A stretch of 32,396 nucleotides of DNA from an uncultured Verrucomicrobia subdivision 3 bacterium (GTDB lineage: Bacteria > Verrucomicrobiota > Verrucomicrobiia > Limisphaerales > UBA11358), in assembly GCA_903888765.1 (NCBI GenBank), contig CAISVF010000074.1:1-32396 (forward strand). The letters are read 5' to 3'. The position numbers were made by a program, and so were the translations under genes. Shown one piece after another: positions 9,921 through 17,562 of the stretch; positions within the stretch are counted from its first letter, which is position 1, and every line of letters starts with the position of its first letter. The notes under the pieces were generated by a model. It was not told where the DNA came from. It searched no databases and saw only the letters and a list, made by a program, of their open reading frames with translations.

Positions 9921-12900
9921 TTAGCTCTCTGCGCCCTGATTCAACTCTTCCTGAACAGAAAGCAATACCTTCCTCAGGGCGTCCAGCCGCAGCGGTTTGG
10001 GCAAAAATCCGTTCATTCCTGCTTCCTTGCACGCATCCTGATCTTTCCTCATCACGTTAGCGGTCAGAGCGCAAATATAGGGTTGCCGAATTTTGGGGTT
10101 TTCTTGACCCAATCTCCTTACTTCACGGGCTGCCGTAAAACCATCCATCTCCGGCATGTGCAAGTCCATCAGAATAAGGTCGTAAACGTTGCGTTTGGTA
10201 ATCTCCAGGCATTCCCAGCCATTGCCGACGGAATCCGCCTGGTATCCCAGCACACCCAGCATCCGCAACGTCAGTACCCGGTTGATTTCGATGTCTTCCA
10301 CGAGCAGGATCCGGAGGGGCTTGAATGGTTTCTCCAGCGCCGGCTGTGGCGCGACGCGCATGTCCGGCGGTTGGAAATCCACCTTTTCACCGGCAGTTTT
10401 GGCAACCTCTACGGGCAGGGTAAAAGTCACGGTGGTTCCCTTGCCTAACTGGCTTTCCATCGCAATGCTTCCGCCCATAAGTTCAACCAGGGTTTTGGAA
10501 ATGGCGAGGCCCAAGCCGGTGCCGCCCTGCTTGCGGGTGGTCGAACTGTCCACCTGGCTGAAAGGTTTGAACAGGGATGCGATTTTTTCGGCAGGAACGC
10601 CGATGCCAGTGTCGATTACTTTAGTCATAATCATAATTTTTCCGTCCTCTCGCCTTGTCGGGTCCTGATGAACATTTACCGTCACTGTGACGGTGCCTTG
10701 GGGGGTGAATTTAACCGCGTTGCCGACCAAATTAACCAATACCTGATGGAGGCGGGTGCTATCGGCAACGACAATCTCAGGCACGTCGGATTCGACGTGC
10801 CATGACAATTTTACTTTCTTTTCCTGACCCGGGGTGCAGATCTCGATCGCATCCCTCAGGCAATTGGCCAGATTTACCGGCTGCATTTCCAGTCGCAATT
10901 GGCGGGCTTCAATGCGGGAAATGTCGAGGATGTCGTCAATGATCACCAGCAGTGAGTCGCCGCTCTTGGAAATGGTTGTCACATATTCGCGCTGTTGCTC
11001 GCTGAGAGGGGTTTCTTGCAAGAGCGTGGCAAATCCCAGCACAGCATGCATCGGGGTGCGGATTTCATGGCTCATTACGCCAAGGAATTCACTCTTGGCA
11101 CGGTCCGCTGCCTCAGCGGCTTCCTTGGCCTGGCGCAATTGTACTTCCGCTAGTTCGCGTTCCACCAGGAGGGCGGCTAGCTCATTAACCCGTTGCTCCA
11201 GCTTCTGGTTGGCCACCGTCAGATCTTGTCGCGCCTGGCTTAATCCTTCGCGTGCCCCGCCCAAACCTTCCGCGCTGCGGGCGATTTCAAACTGTAATTT
11301 ATTAAAACTATCGGCCATTTCGCCCAGCTCGTCTTTAGAATGAACGCCCACCGGCTGGTAATCCACCCGGGCATGGGCAGCTTTCAGGTCCCCCTTGCCC
11401 AGCGCCTGCATCGCCCGCGAAAAATCAGTGATGGTGCCGCTGACTAGCCGGTCAGCGGCTTTGGCCACCTGCACGGCGGAATGGGCAATCATCCCGGGCA
11501 ATACCATGCCCACCGTGATCGTCAGCATCGCTACCGCTACAAAAATGTCGGCCAGAAGTGTTAGCAGGCCGGTGTCCTGCTTGGGAATGGCATTAAAGGC
11601 GATCAAATAGCCGGCACCATCCAGAAAAAGCACCAGCAGCATGGCTCCGGTCAGTTTGATGTGCAGGGTGCGGGCAATGCCAGGCAGACCCATTTTGCGA
11701 CGGTCAGAATAACGGCGCCAGGCGTATAAGGCGGCTCCGGAATAAGCAAAGGTCAGACCGATGAGCACTGTGGAGAGTCCGAATTGTTGAAAACCAAAAA
11801 TGGCGGTTATGGCCCAAATAATGGCTGCGCCGACTCCGAGCAAAACCAATCCCTTGGGTGCCCGGTACGGTCTTGGCAGGTCCGGTTCATTCTTGCGCAG
11901 CAGCCACACGGCTACATTGGGCATGCCGATACCGATCAGATAGGTGAAGTTGGCCGAGGCTACCAGCCAGATCGGATCGCCGATCCACATAAACCAGATG
12001 GAAAAGCCGGCGGTCAACAGGGTGGCTACCCACGGTGCATCGGTTCGGGAGCGCCAGGCCAGAAATTCGGGGGCCAGGCCATCTTCTGCCAGTTGTGATA
12101 ATGTTCGAGATGCCCCTGCCAGCGGTTGCAGAGTGCCATGAAACATGTTGAAGGTCATGAAACCCAGCGCAGCCGCTTTGGCCCCACTGCCAAACACCGG
12201 GGCAAAAGTAGGCCCCAGCACTTGAATCAAATCCTTGCCGAGCGCTTCCGGTCCCAACGCGCCGAGCCAGACCAGTGGTAAAATTACAAAATAAACCGAG
12301 GCCATCAGTCCCGATGCCAGGACTGCTCTCGGCACGTTTTTTTCCGGGTTGATCGTTTCACCCACGTGACAGGTTGCCGCCTCAAAAGCCGGCGCGGCAA
12401 AGCCCACCAGATATAAGCCTGCCATCGCGCTGGACAACGCCCCAAACCAGCCGGGAAAGGGGAGGGTTAAATGGAAAGTGGTTGCCTGATGCCAGTCCAC
12501 CTTGCCGGTCAGGACCGGTGCCATAAATGAAATAAAAGCCAGGCTGGCGGAAGTAAAGGCAAACGGAAGGGCAAAACGGCCGGTCCATCTTACCCCGCAG
12601 AGGTTGACCACCGTAAAGATGCATACAATCGACAAGGCAATCCACTTGGCGTCGAGAGAAACTCCCAGCCAGTCATGAATGGCGGCTGCGGAGAGTAAAG
12701 CGGTCAAACCGCAGGTGGGCACCCAGCCCCACCAGTAGCAAACGCCGGTTAAATTTGCCAACACCGGACTGTACGGTTTAAATGCTTCGGCACAGGTAGC
12801 GGCAATGCCGCCCACCCGCTTGGGATACATCAGAATCAGTTCCACCCAACCCGGTGCCGCGGCCCAGCTCAATAAAAGTCCCAAAATCAGCAATGGCACC

Positions 12901-13061
12901 GCCGCACTGCCTTGGCCGGGAATGGGGTCTTGTCCAATGAACAGGGCGGCAATTAGAAATAAGCTCTGGTTGCTGCCGCCCATGGCCATGGCGGTGGTGG
13001 TCAGCCATCCCAACGTCCGGGGATGTTCACGCATGGGGGCAGTCGTCGCGGCGGTGTTCAT
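9921..13061 (-). CDS. APC-superfamily amino-acid permease fused to HAMP-HisKA-HATPase_c-receiver (hybrid sensor histidine kinase)
   Basis: One 1046-aa ORF. The N-terminal ~450 aa are permease-like (PGWVELILMYPKRVGGIAATCAEAF, GFAAPAFEAATCHVGETINPEKNVPRAVLASGL, PDLPRPYRAP). These are followed by extra hydrophobic segments, HAMP-like sequence, KSEFLGVMSHEIRTPMHAVLGFA (HisKA, His665), NLVGNAVKFTPQG and GGTGLGLAISKTLVELMGG (HATPase) and ILLVEDIEINRVL...YDLILMDLHMPEMDG (receiver, Asp966). Confidence 0.93.
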   Translation of the reverse strand: MNTAATTAPMREHPRTLGWLTTTAMAMGGSNQSLFLIAALFIGQDPIPGQGSAAVPLLILGLLLSWAAAPGWVELILMYPKRVGGIAATCAEAFKPYSPVLANLTGVCYWWGWVPTCGLTALLSAAAIHDWLGVSLDAKWIALSIVCIFTVVNLCGVRWTGRFALPFAFTSASLAFISFMAPVLTGKVDWHQATTFHLTLPFPGWFGALSSAMAGLYLVGFAAPAFEAATCHVGETINPEKNVPRAVLASGLMASVYFVILPLVWLGALGPEALGKDLIQVLGPTFAPVFGSGAKAAALGFMTFNMFHGTLQPLAGASRTLSQLAEDGLAPEFLAWRSRTDAPWVATLLTAGFSIWFMWIGDPIWLVASANFTYLIGIGMPNVAVWLLRKNEPDLPRPYRAPKGLVLLGVGAAIIWAITAIFGFQQFGLSTVLIGLTFAYSGAALYAWRRYSDRRKMGLPGIARTLHIKLTGAMLLVLFLDGAGYLIAFNAIPKQDTGLLTLLADIFVAVAMLTITVGMVLPGMIAHSAVQVAKAADRLVSGTITDFSRAMQALGKGDLKAAHARVDYQPVGVHSKDELGEMADSFNKLQFEIARSAEGLGGAREGLSQARQDLTVANQKLEQRVNELAALLVERELAEVQLRQAKEAAEAADRAKSEFLGVMSHEIRTPMHAVLGFATLLQETPLSEQQREYVTTISKSGDSLLVIIDDILDISRIEARQLRLEMQPVNLANCLRDAIEICTPGQEKKVKLSWHVESDVPEIVVADSTRLHQVLVNLVGNAVKFTPQGTVTVTVNVHQDPTRREDGKIMIMTKVIDTGIGVPAEKIASLFKPFSQVDSSTTRKQGGTGLGLAISKTLVELMGGSIAMESQLGKGTTVTFTLPVEVAKTAGEKVDFQPPDMRVAPQPALEKPFKPLRILLVEDIEINRVLTLRMLGVLGYQADSVGNGWECLEITKRNVYDLILMDLHMPEMDGFTAAREVRRLGQENPKIRQPYICALTANVMRKDQDACKEAGMNGFLPKPLRLDALRKVLLSVQEELNQGAES

Positions 13062-13252: not shown

Positions 13253-13327
13253 GTAAGCAAAAATTGTGCCAACAGAAACAGCCGATTTTTCGCAGTATTT
13301 TACAGGAATCAGGCGTTGCTTAACCAT

Positions 13328-13540: not shown

Positions 13541-13918
13541 TCAGAGCCGGAATTTCATCCGCAATTCCATCAATAAAGTGCTTTCCCAGGTACTGACGTT
13601 GTTGTCGCTGGTCATCAATTGTTCTACTGCGGCATAAACCTGCTTTTGCTGCTTTCGACCGGTAAAAACCTCAGCCAACCCCAAAGCCAGTTCCTTGGCT
13701 TTGTGGATGGATTGAATACTGGGCCGTATCCTGGTCACCGCCGCATCAAATTCACGGTGGCGGTCAATTTCGTCAGTAAATCCCATGGCCGCCAACACTT
13801 GCTGCAGCTTTTGATCTTCAAAAGAAGTCAGATGCCCGTCCGCATACATGGCTAAAATCAACAAATCGAAAAGCGCCTGTTTTTGGGATGCCGAAAAATT
13901 TTCGAGTTCAAAATCCAT
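13541..13918 (-). CDS. TerB-like (tellurite-resistance TerB fold) protein
   Basis: MDFELENFSASQKQALFDLLILAMYADGHLTSFEDQKLQQVLAAMGF, the TerB-like 'l.aMyADGhls..E...l..vl..lg' pattern. The ORF track extends to 13972; MDFELENF is the likely start. Confidence 0.6.
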   Translation of the reverse strand: MDFELENFSASQKQALFDLLILAMYADGHLTSFEDQKLQQVLAAMGFTDEIDRHREFDAAVTRIRPSIQSIHKAKELALGLAEVFTGRKQQKQVYAAVEQLMTSDNNVSTWESTLLMELRMKFRL

Positions 13919-14191
13919 GGCTGAAATTAACACAATTTGCCGCGAATGGTAAGAGGGAAGCAGATTTTGCATTTCCAGAATGGGTGGCCATCCGATGGAA
14001 CGAACTTATCCAATGCGGTTTGCGTGCTTTGGAGAAAAGGTTTCAACGGAGGGAAGTCTAAAAGTATTCCCGCCCGCCCCGCCCCTGGTTACTGATATTT
14101 GCGCCTGCGGCTGCTTTTCCAGCCGGCCGGAACTTCGCGCAAAATAATTGTTTGAATCGCACGCAAAACCGGTTAGTTATTCCCCGCTGAA

Positions 14192-16626: not shown

Positions 16627-17562
16627 ATGAAAAATCAAAATCTGAACGACTCTTTAAAGAAAGCCAGTGTGGGTGTGTTGCTGAGTTTTGGGGCTCCGGT
16701 CGCGGCGTTTGCCTGCGCTTGCGGCTGCGGTGTGTTTGATGTGGGCACCAGCTCCATGTTTCCATCAGATGCCGGCGGTACCGCGTTTCTGAACTACGCT
16801 TACCAAAACCAGGATCATAACTGGAGCGGCACGTCATCTGCGCCCGCTGGCAGCAATGACGATAAAAAAATCGAAACCCACTTCGTCACCTTGGGATTAC
16901 AATATCTGTTCAATCCTGATTGGGGTGTGCAATGGGAACTTCCGTTCGCCAACCGCACCTTTGATTCTGTTGGCAACACTTCCTCTCTGAATTGGACCAG
17001 TCTGGGCGATGTCCGCCTCAAGGGCCTTTACACCGGTTTCTCGGAGGATTTATCGAGTGGCCTGACGTTCGGGGTCAAGCTGCCCACCGGCAGCTACCAT
17101 CACACCGAAGCCCTTGGCAGCATTGACCGGGACACGCAGATCGGCTCCGGCAGCACGGATTTTCTGCTGGGCGGTTATCACCGTGCCCGCCTGGGAAATT
17201 CGCCCTGGAATTGGTTTGTGCAGGCAGAACTGGATATGCCGGCTTTGAAACAAGGCGATTATCGTCCGGGGCTCGAAGCAGATGCAGCCGTGGGATTTTA
17301 TTTCGACGGCCTCTCGCTCGGCCGCACCAAGGTTTCACCCGTCGCGCAGGTCATCGGTTCTTGGCGTGGGCGTGATACCGGATTGGCTGCCGCGTCGGAC
17401 AATTCCGGCTATCAGCGCATCTTGGTTTCGCCCGGACTTGAGTTTCATCTGCACCCCGTGAAAATATACGCCGACGCGGAACTGCCGGTTTATCAAAATG
17501 TGAGCGGCCATCAGTTGGTGGCGCCGGTATTGTTCAAATTGACCTTGAGCTATATGTTTTAG
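16627..17562 (+). CDS. Outer-membrane beta-barrel-like protein with Cys-rich mature N-terminus
   Basis: Signal peptide ASVGVLLSFGAPVAAFA followed by CACGCGVFDVGTSSMFPSD; alternating amphipathic strands (WGVQWELPFANRTF, LSSGLTFGVKLPTGSYHH) and terminal aromatic FKLTLSYMF. Confidence 0.75.
   Translation: MKNQNLNDSLKKASVGVLLSFGAPVAAFACACGCGVFDVGTSSMFPSDAGGTAFLNYAYQNQDHNWSGTSSAPAGSNDDKKIETHFVTLGLQYLFNPDWGVQWELPFANRTFDSVGNTSSLNWTSLGDVRLKGLYTGFSEDLSSGLTFGVKLPTGSYHHTEALGSIDRDTQIGSGSTDFLLGGYHRARLGNSPWNWFVQAELDMPALKQGDYRPGLEADAAVGFYFDGLSLGRTKVSPVAQVIGSWRGRDTGLAAASDNSGYQRILVSPGLEFHLHPVKIYADAELPVYQNVSGHQLVAPVLFKLTLSYMF

Follow-up and report, generated by a model that had tools for sequence, protein, structure and literature searches.

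A permease and a hybrid histidine kinase in one reading frame

The window, that is, the whole stretch of 32,396 nucleotides analysed here, carries on its minus strand (9921-13061) a single open reading frame that begins with ATG, has no internal stop codons and encodes a protein of 1046 amino acids (P0001). An earlier note on this DNA had described one uninterrupted frame of this length, and the interval proved exact, the strand being our addition. The features of the gene, together with a promoter-like sequence before it, are the following:

9921-13061, minus strand: whole gene (P0001, 1046 aa), a fusion of APC permease, hairpin, HAMP, HisKA, HATPase_c and REC (open reading frame, Pfam, AF2)
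11697-13028, minus strand: permease domain, residues 12-455, predicted LeuT-type fold (Pfam AA_permease_2; Foldseek)
11427-11696, minus strand: conserved two-helix membrane hairpin, residues 456-545, with D481, G484, Y485, D505 and F507 (alignments A1 and A3)
11226-11426, minus strand: HAMP with the beginning of the signalling helix (residues 546-612), the module's final part (Pfam HAMP; drop in identity)
10905-11099, minus strand: HisKA dimerisation and phosphoacceptor domain, residues 655-719, with H665 (Pfam)
10407-10763, minus strand: HATPase_c catalytic domain, residues 767-885 (Pfam)
9966-10310, minus strand: C-terminal receiver domain, residues 918-1032, with D966 (Pfam)
13256-13271, minus strand: sigma-54 (-24/-12)-like site TGGCAC-N5-TTGCT, 195 bases upstream of the start codon; near-perfect match, taken as a lead only

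All five domain families proposed from the letters alone were matched in the Pfam scan, namely AA_permease_2 (residues 17-424, E 1.4e-33, 117 bits against a curated cut-off of 27), HAMP (544-590, E 7e-6), HisKA (655-719, E 1.6e-21), HATPase_c (767-885, E 5.8e-32) and Response_reg (918-1032, E 2e-20). The transporter-type matches of the protein were to AA_permease_2 and AA_permease only, with none to SSS/SLC5. The phosphoacceptor H665 lies within MSHEIRTP (663-670) and the receiver D966 within LILMDLHMPEMDG, both residues being where the earlier note had placed them, and the N, G1 and G2 boxes were all found in HATPase_c. Judged by its HisKA histidine, HATPase_c N and G boxes and REC aspartate, the protein is a hybrid histidine kinase.

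AF2 modelling gave a mean pLDDT of 86 and a pTM of 0.61 for the full-length protein, and 83 and 0.78 for the module alone. TM1 is broken near residues 30-32 in both models, and a break in TM6, at 220-221, is confined to the full-length one. Foldseek retrieved AdiC, BasC, LAT1, y+LAT1, Asc-1 and ApcT (TM-scores of 0.7-0.8 on the target), and a profile search of PDB sequences returned y+LAT, xCT, GkApcT and LAT1 (E 4e-13 to 1e-9). The predicted permease fold is APC/LAT-like, of the LeuT type, so that the assignment to the APC families holds both by Pfam and by structure comparison. The additional hydrophobic segments that had been seen in the linker correspond to two helices (466-491 and 497 to about 533), and modelling of the permease-HAMP junction shows the second of them continuing unbroken into HAMP, to residue 555, in the two models; the hairpin is modelled with moderate confidence (block pLDDT of about 76-87 at full length and 55-78 in the module alone), and the models are of monomers, with the dimer interface outside their scope.

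The fusion of permease and kinase is real, because orthologues keep 65-80% identity over nearly their full length. Searching with the whole protein (tblastn), we found seven such near-full-length loci in other assemblies (L051, L052, L054-L058), of which L056 is a complete genome (CP011265.1) carrying the full fusion, while at L053 the receiver is absent. The nearest relatives in the genome collection scanned are MAGs titled Verrucomicrobia subdivision 3. The source assembly (5.4 Mb) is fragmented into 621 contigs, which could raise the suspicion of an assembly chimaera or of two genes read through; however, the near-full-length orthologues, that of the complete genome included, rule out a chimaeric assembly, and isolates also carry the module fused to other outputs, leaving this explanation a practically negligible probability.

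A conserved sensor module with interchangeable outputs

Residues 1-554 were used as the query against a genome collection holding one genome per species, and 80 related loci were returned. In an alignment of 73 sequences, conservation extends to about residue 607 and then drops; by pairwise identity the fall comes beyond about residue 612. Median pairwise identity was 0.68 in the permease, 0.59 in the hairpin, 0.54 in HAMP, 0.29 in the coil, 0.19 in the HisKA columns and 0.28 in the HATPase columns, the last two values partly reflecting members without any kinase at those columns; measured against the window protein alone, the respective medians were 0.69, 0.62, 0.60, 0.39, 0.38 and 0.41. Pfam matched HAMP in 47/47 modules and AA_permease_2 in 42 of the 47, and module members scored approximately 900-1090 bits, whereas no further permease of the genomes searched exceeded 123 bits. 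We show here that residues 1-612 (permease, hairpin and HAMP) form a single conserved sensor module and that this module always precedes a signalling output: none of the 80 loci holds an intact stand-alone module, all copies other than truncated or frameshifted ones being fused to an output. The search for this architecture across genomes, which the earlier note had proposed, places the window gene as one member of a widespread sensor-module family; the original observation is confirmed, and was understated.

Apparent short copies were considered as stand-alone ancestors and rejected, those at L151 and L111 being frameshifts directly before HAMP-GGDEF and those at L108 and L129 frameshifts inside the permease. 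The two former loci (L151, near 3099 in G435, a genome from the family of Glaciimonas; L111, near 7530) are betaproteobacterial, and their frameshifts suggest decay or sequencing error. A search for the hairpin throughout one order (298 genomes) gave four strong matches, each of them behind a permease, and three weak ones (E about 5e-5, 548-aa frames) that showed no permease.

Counting the window protein there are 72 intact proteins, nine further loci being off-contig, frameshifted or otherwise incomplete. Histidine kinases make up 54 of the 72 outputs and c-di-GMP enzymes the other 18, as confirmed by Pfam. The kinases contain HisKA with zero, one or two receivers, HisKA_2 or HisKA_3, some of them with PAS, GAF or Hpt, and the c-di-GMP enzymes comprise 16 GGDEF-EAL proteins, one GGDEF protein with an incomplete EAL (L104) and one GGDEF-HD-GYP protein. 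The state changes between kinase and c-di-GMP enzyme at least seven times along the maximum-likelihood tree of the module, a number that is approximate, this being a quick tree with SH-aLRT support only. The outputs of the module are thereby shown to be interchangeable among hybrid and simple kinases of three DHp types, GGDEF-EAL and GGDEF-HD-GYP.

It could be argued that the permease is a mere membrane anchor or oligomerisation platform and that the signal enters elsewhere, for example through REC, PAS or GAF, since some members have PAS or GAF between HAMP and output. We find this very improbable, as the permease keeps a median pairwise identity of 68% and many invariant polar and aromatic core residues, whereas the outputs diverge to 19-28%.

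Taxonomic distribution

The module is present in at least three phyla, going by isolates or complete replicons: Pseudomonadota (Glaciimonas immobilis, Roseiarcus fermentans and Paraburkholderia sp. PREW-6R), Verrucomicrobiota (IMCC26134) and Actinomycetota (Actinoplanes palleronii). Copies also occur in single MAGs whose titles name Chloroflexota (Herpetosiphonaceae), Omnitrophota, Dormibacterota and Eremiobacterota, bins of this kind being liable to contain foreign contigs. Within the source genus the module is present in 5 of 35 sampled relatives, one having two copies and one a copy broken by a frameshift; the remaining sampled relatives have distant permeases only, or none, and the distribution is patchy. 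Prevalence is low: the module occurred in 2 of 289 genomes sampled from the phylum, in 3 of 246 from the family to which Glaciimonas belongs, in 4 of 298 from the order that includes Roseiarcus, as counted with the hairpin profile, and in 1 of 201 from the family of Actinoplanes. In the module tree, sequences from Pseudomonadota and from Verrucomicrobiota intermingle. High sequence identity combined with patchy presence suggests that the module may have spread horizontally.

The plasmid search gave one match, in an unannotated record of Paraburkholderia sp. PREW-6R (L156, NZ_CP155075.1 251329-252987). At L156 the module leads into a hybrid kinase that has both REC and Hpt, and the 1.09-Mb replicon is listed as a plasmid.

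The putative binding site and a distant kinship with trimethylamine N-oxide permeases

The two broken helices differ in the module from those of ordinary APC permeases of the same genomes: in TM1, where the ordinary permeases have G-S/A/T-G-I-F, the module has G-G-S-N-Q-S, which is shorter by one residue, and in TM6 it has F-A-A-P-A-F-E in place of F-A-Y-x-G-F-D. The canonical TM1 G-S/A-G and TM6 G-F/W-E/D are thus absent from the module, where GGSNQS and FAAPAFE are nearly invariant, and only the aromatic-acid pair F226-E227 of the canonical TM6 motif is retained. The G-S/A-G motif typifies the canonical amino-acid members and not the whole superfamily, trimethylamine N-oxide (TMAO) permeases also being without the TM1 motif. 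Invariant in the 73 sequences are C90, C108, Y109, W110, W111, W113, P115, G220, F221, A223, P224, A225 and E227, and N31, C117 and H232 are nearly so.

The best NCBIfam family of the window protein is NF053774, trimethylamine N-oxide permease, which was matched by 47 of 47 modules; the window protein nevertheless scores 119 bits against an equivalog cut-off of 690, genuine members scoring 690-899 bits. In a tree including 12 genuine TMAO permeases the module shares their branch, apart from the ordinary APC permeases, although the branches are long. Common to both are the shorter TM1, C-x-W-x-x-W-x-P in TM3, F-E-x-A-x-C in TM6 and A-G-[AS]-[AS]-R-T in TM8. The TMAO permease, which reportedly was described in an earlier published study, is by contrast a stand-alone transporter without hairpin, HAMP or output, is about 25% identical to the module and differs from it at N31/Q32 and P224/A225.

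Because these nearest named permeases share the TM3 and TM6 motifs, we tentatively propose that the ligand may be a methylated or other small amine. The module's row of aromatic residues would fit an amine that is methylated or quaternary. Neither an MttB-type methyltransferase nor a true TMAO permease was found in the source genus, and for this reason a role in methylamine metabolism is unsupported there. The earlier suggestion of an amino acid or an amine as substrate may therefore be narrowed, with non-canonical motifs and a TMAO permease as nearest family making the amine likelier and the amino acid less so.

The same residues admit another reading, in which the protein would respond not to an organic ligand but to a physical or redox state (membrane energisation, thiols, or a metal at C90, C108, C117, C231 and H232). 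These four cysteines and one histidine are invariant or nearly so, they occupy membrane or membrane-border positions, and a conserved metabolic neighbour is absent; however, TMAO-type transporters also have equivalents of C108 (TM3) and C231 (TM6), so the cysteine set is partly inherited and not specific to the sensor, and we consider this reading unlikely.

Partners and genomic neighbourhood

The statement that no response regulator with an output domain is visible in the window agrees with our own examination, which found none by Pfam in the ten proteins scanned, nor by eye in the other ORF translations. In some relatives, regulator genes lie at or beside the stop codon of the kinase, often with a 4-base overlap. 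The kinase is followed by a REC-HD-GYP protein at L103, by an OmpR-type regulator at L115 (with REC proteins in the same place at L113 and L125) and by a REC-PAS-kinase-REC protein at L065 (with similar ORFs at L063, L068 and L077). Going by these types of regulator, the kinase branch and the c-di-GMP branch of the family alike lead to c-di-GMP or to transcription. The sensors of the last group are of the HisKA_2 type and precede, mostly with a 4-base overlap, a REC protein of about 680 aa (L065:2633-4684, L063:8529-10574, L068:7247-9301, L077:2935-4893), with the domains REC-PAS-HATPase_c-REC at L065, a two-gene relay conserved in several Verrucomicrobiota MAGs.

The 651 ORFs around the 80 loci revealed no metabolic cluster of wide occurrence; what recurred were response regulators and two clusters of three loci each. 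At L116 (9967-12792, minus strand) and L122 (10009-12834, minus strand) a 941-aa protein, by eye a formate dehydrogenase large subunit, is encoded just downstream on the opposite strand; it is a possible link to C1 metabolism, in one clade only.

The sigma-54-like pattern upstream of the gene has two exact matches in the window against 0.05 expected, the second lying inside a gene, and none of 2000 shuffled versions of the 480-base gap gave a match; rpoN is present in the source genome. Since the site is absent upstream of the two nearest orthologues, sigma-54 control was discarded as an argument. Also upstream of the sensor gene, a small protein (13544-13972, minus strand) has a weak TerB-like match below cut-off and is absent beside the orthologues. 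Elsewhere in the window, a 311-aa protein with no Pfam matches (16627-17562, plus strand), secreted or outer-membrane by appearance, precedes a SCO1/SenC gene.

A candidate transceptor and its relation to known sensors

We consider it likely that the product of the window gene is a transceptor in one piece, in which a LAT-like transporter fold of the APC superfamily serves as the receptor. All members would bind one small ligand, or closely similar ones, between TM1, TM3, TM6 and TM8. The inward and outward rocking of the LeuT-fold bundle would shift the hairpin, and the second hairpin helix, which runs on as HAMP helix 1, would pass the movement on to HAMP, which in turn would switch the attached dimeric enzyme. 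In the window protein, autophosphorylation of H665 would be followed by intramolecular transfer to D966, from where an Hpt protein or a regulator encoded at an unlinked locus would take the signal further.

Coupling of SLC5 domains to kinases is described for CbrA, CrbS (MxtR), RpuS and PrlS (PMC7918813, PMC13022988, PMC9100948), the coupler being STAC in CbrA and its closest kin (PMC7918813, PMC13022988). These proteins resemble ours in having an N-terminal multi-TM transporter fold of the LeuT type fused to a (hybrid) histidine kinase, but theirs is an SSS/SLC5 transporter whereas the module is APC (AA_permease_2); where CbrA has the STAC connector, a membrane hairpin and HAMP fill the linker of the module (Pfam, AF2 model), and, unlike the CbrA group, the module also sits on GGDEF-EAL and GGDEF-HD-GYP enzymes. 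The analogy with CbrA that was drawn at the outset consequently stands as a precedent for joining transporter and kinase and fails for the coupling element, which is hairpin plus HAMP and not STAC. Ks-Amt5 is a fusion of an Amt domain and a kinase without HAMP, in which transport has been lost (PMC5764959). There too a transporter fold serves as the ligand sensor of the fused kinase, yet the fold is a trimeric Amt, without HAMP and in one organism, whereas the module combines APC with HAMP in several phyla and with several outputs.

These precedents bear on whether the permease domain is an active transporter, as in CbrA, with substrate still being transported and the flux or ion-gradient coupling, instead of occupancy, setting kinase activity. 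General APC features are kept (E227 in TM6, R319 in TM8, and D327), and the SLC5 domain of CbrA alone transports histidine (PMC7096432, PMC7918813). On the other hand, the module was never found standing alone, G-S-N-Q takes the place of the G-S/A-G substrate motif of TM1 in nearly all members, and a fused transporter can lose transport, as Ks-Amt5 did (PMC5764959), so that we regard continued transport as possible but rather doubtful.

With MASE1, MHYT and 5TMR/7TMR, the module shares the property of being a multi-TM input domain plugged into both kinases and c-di-GMP enzymes, and it differs from them in comprising an entire secondary-transporter fold with HAMP behind it. A permease is unmentioned in a census and review of c-di-GMP sensory domains (PMC8846402) and in a survey of alphaproteobacterial c-di-GMP proteins (PMC9756655). 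The open-access full texts searched contained no description of an APC-kinase or APC-GGDEF protein, and this absence of matches is consistent with the earlier remark that no characterised kinase fusion of the APC family was known. According to a survey of 2024, transceptors are rare and no prokaryotic one was known before the S-component fold, CbrA having been excluded because of its soluble bridging STAC (PMC11109136).

Whether the module represents an undescribed, horizontally spread receptor family, in which the APC fold acts as an interchangeable dedicated sensor for two-component and c-di-GMP signalling with one conserved small ligand in all hosts, is a wider proposition that we hold to be evenly balanced. 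It seems that a transporter fold has here been turned into a plug-in receptor. The occurrence of a HAMP-coupled APC module on kinases and c-di-GMP enzymes would offer a natural series for understanding how a rocking-bundle transporter drives HAMP, and the module, being movable between outputs, is suited to chimaera tests. It would, moreover, identify a ligand worth sensing for many freshwater, peat and soil bacteria.
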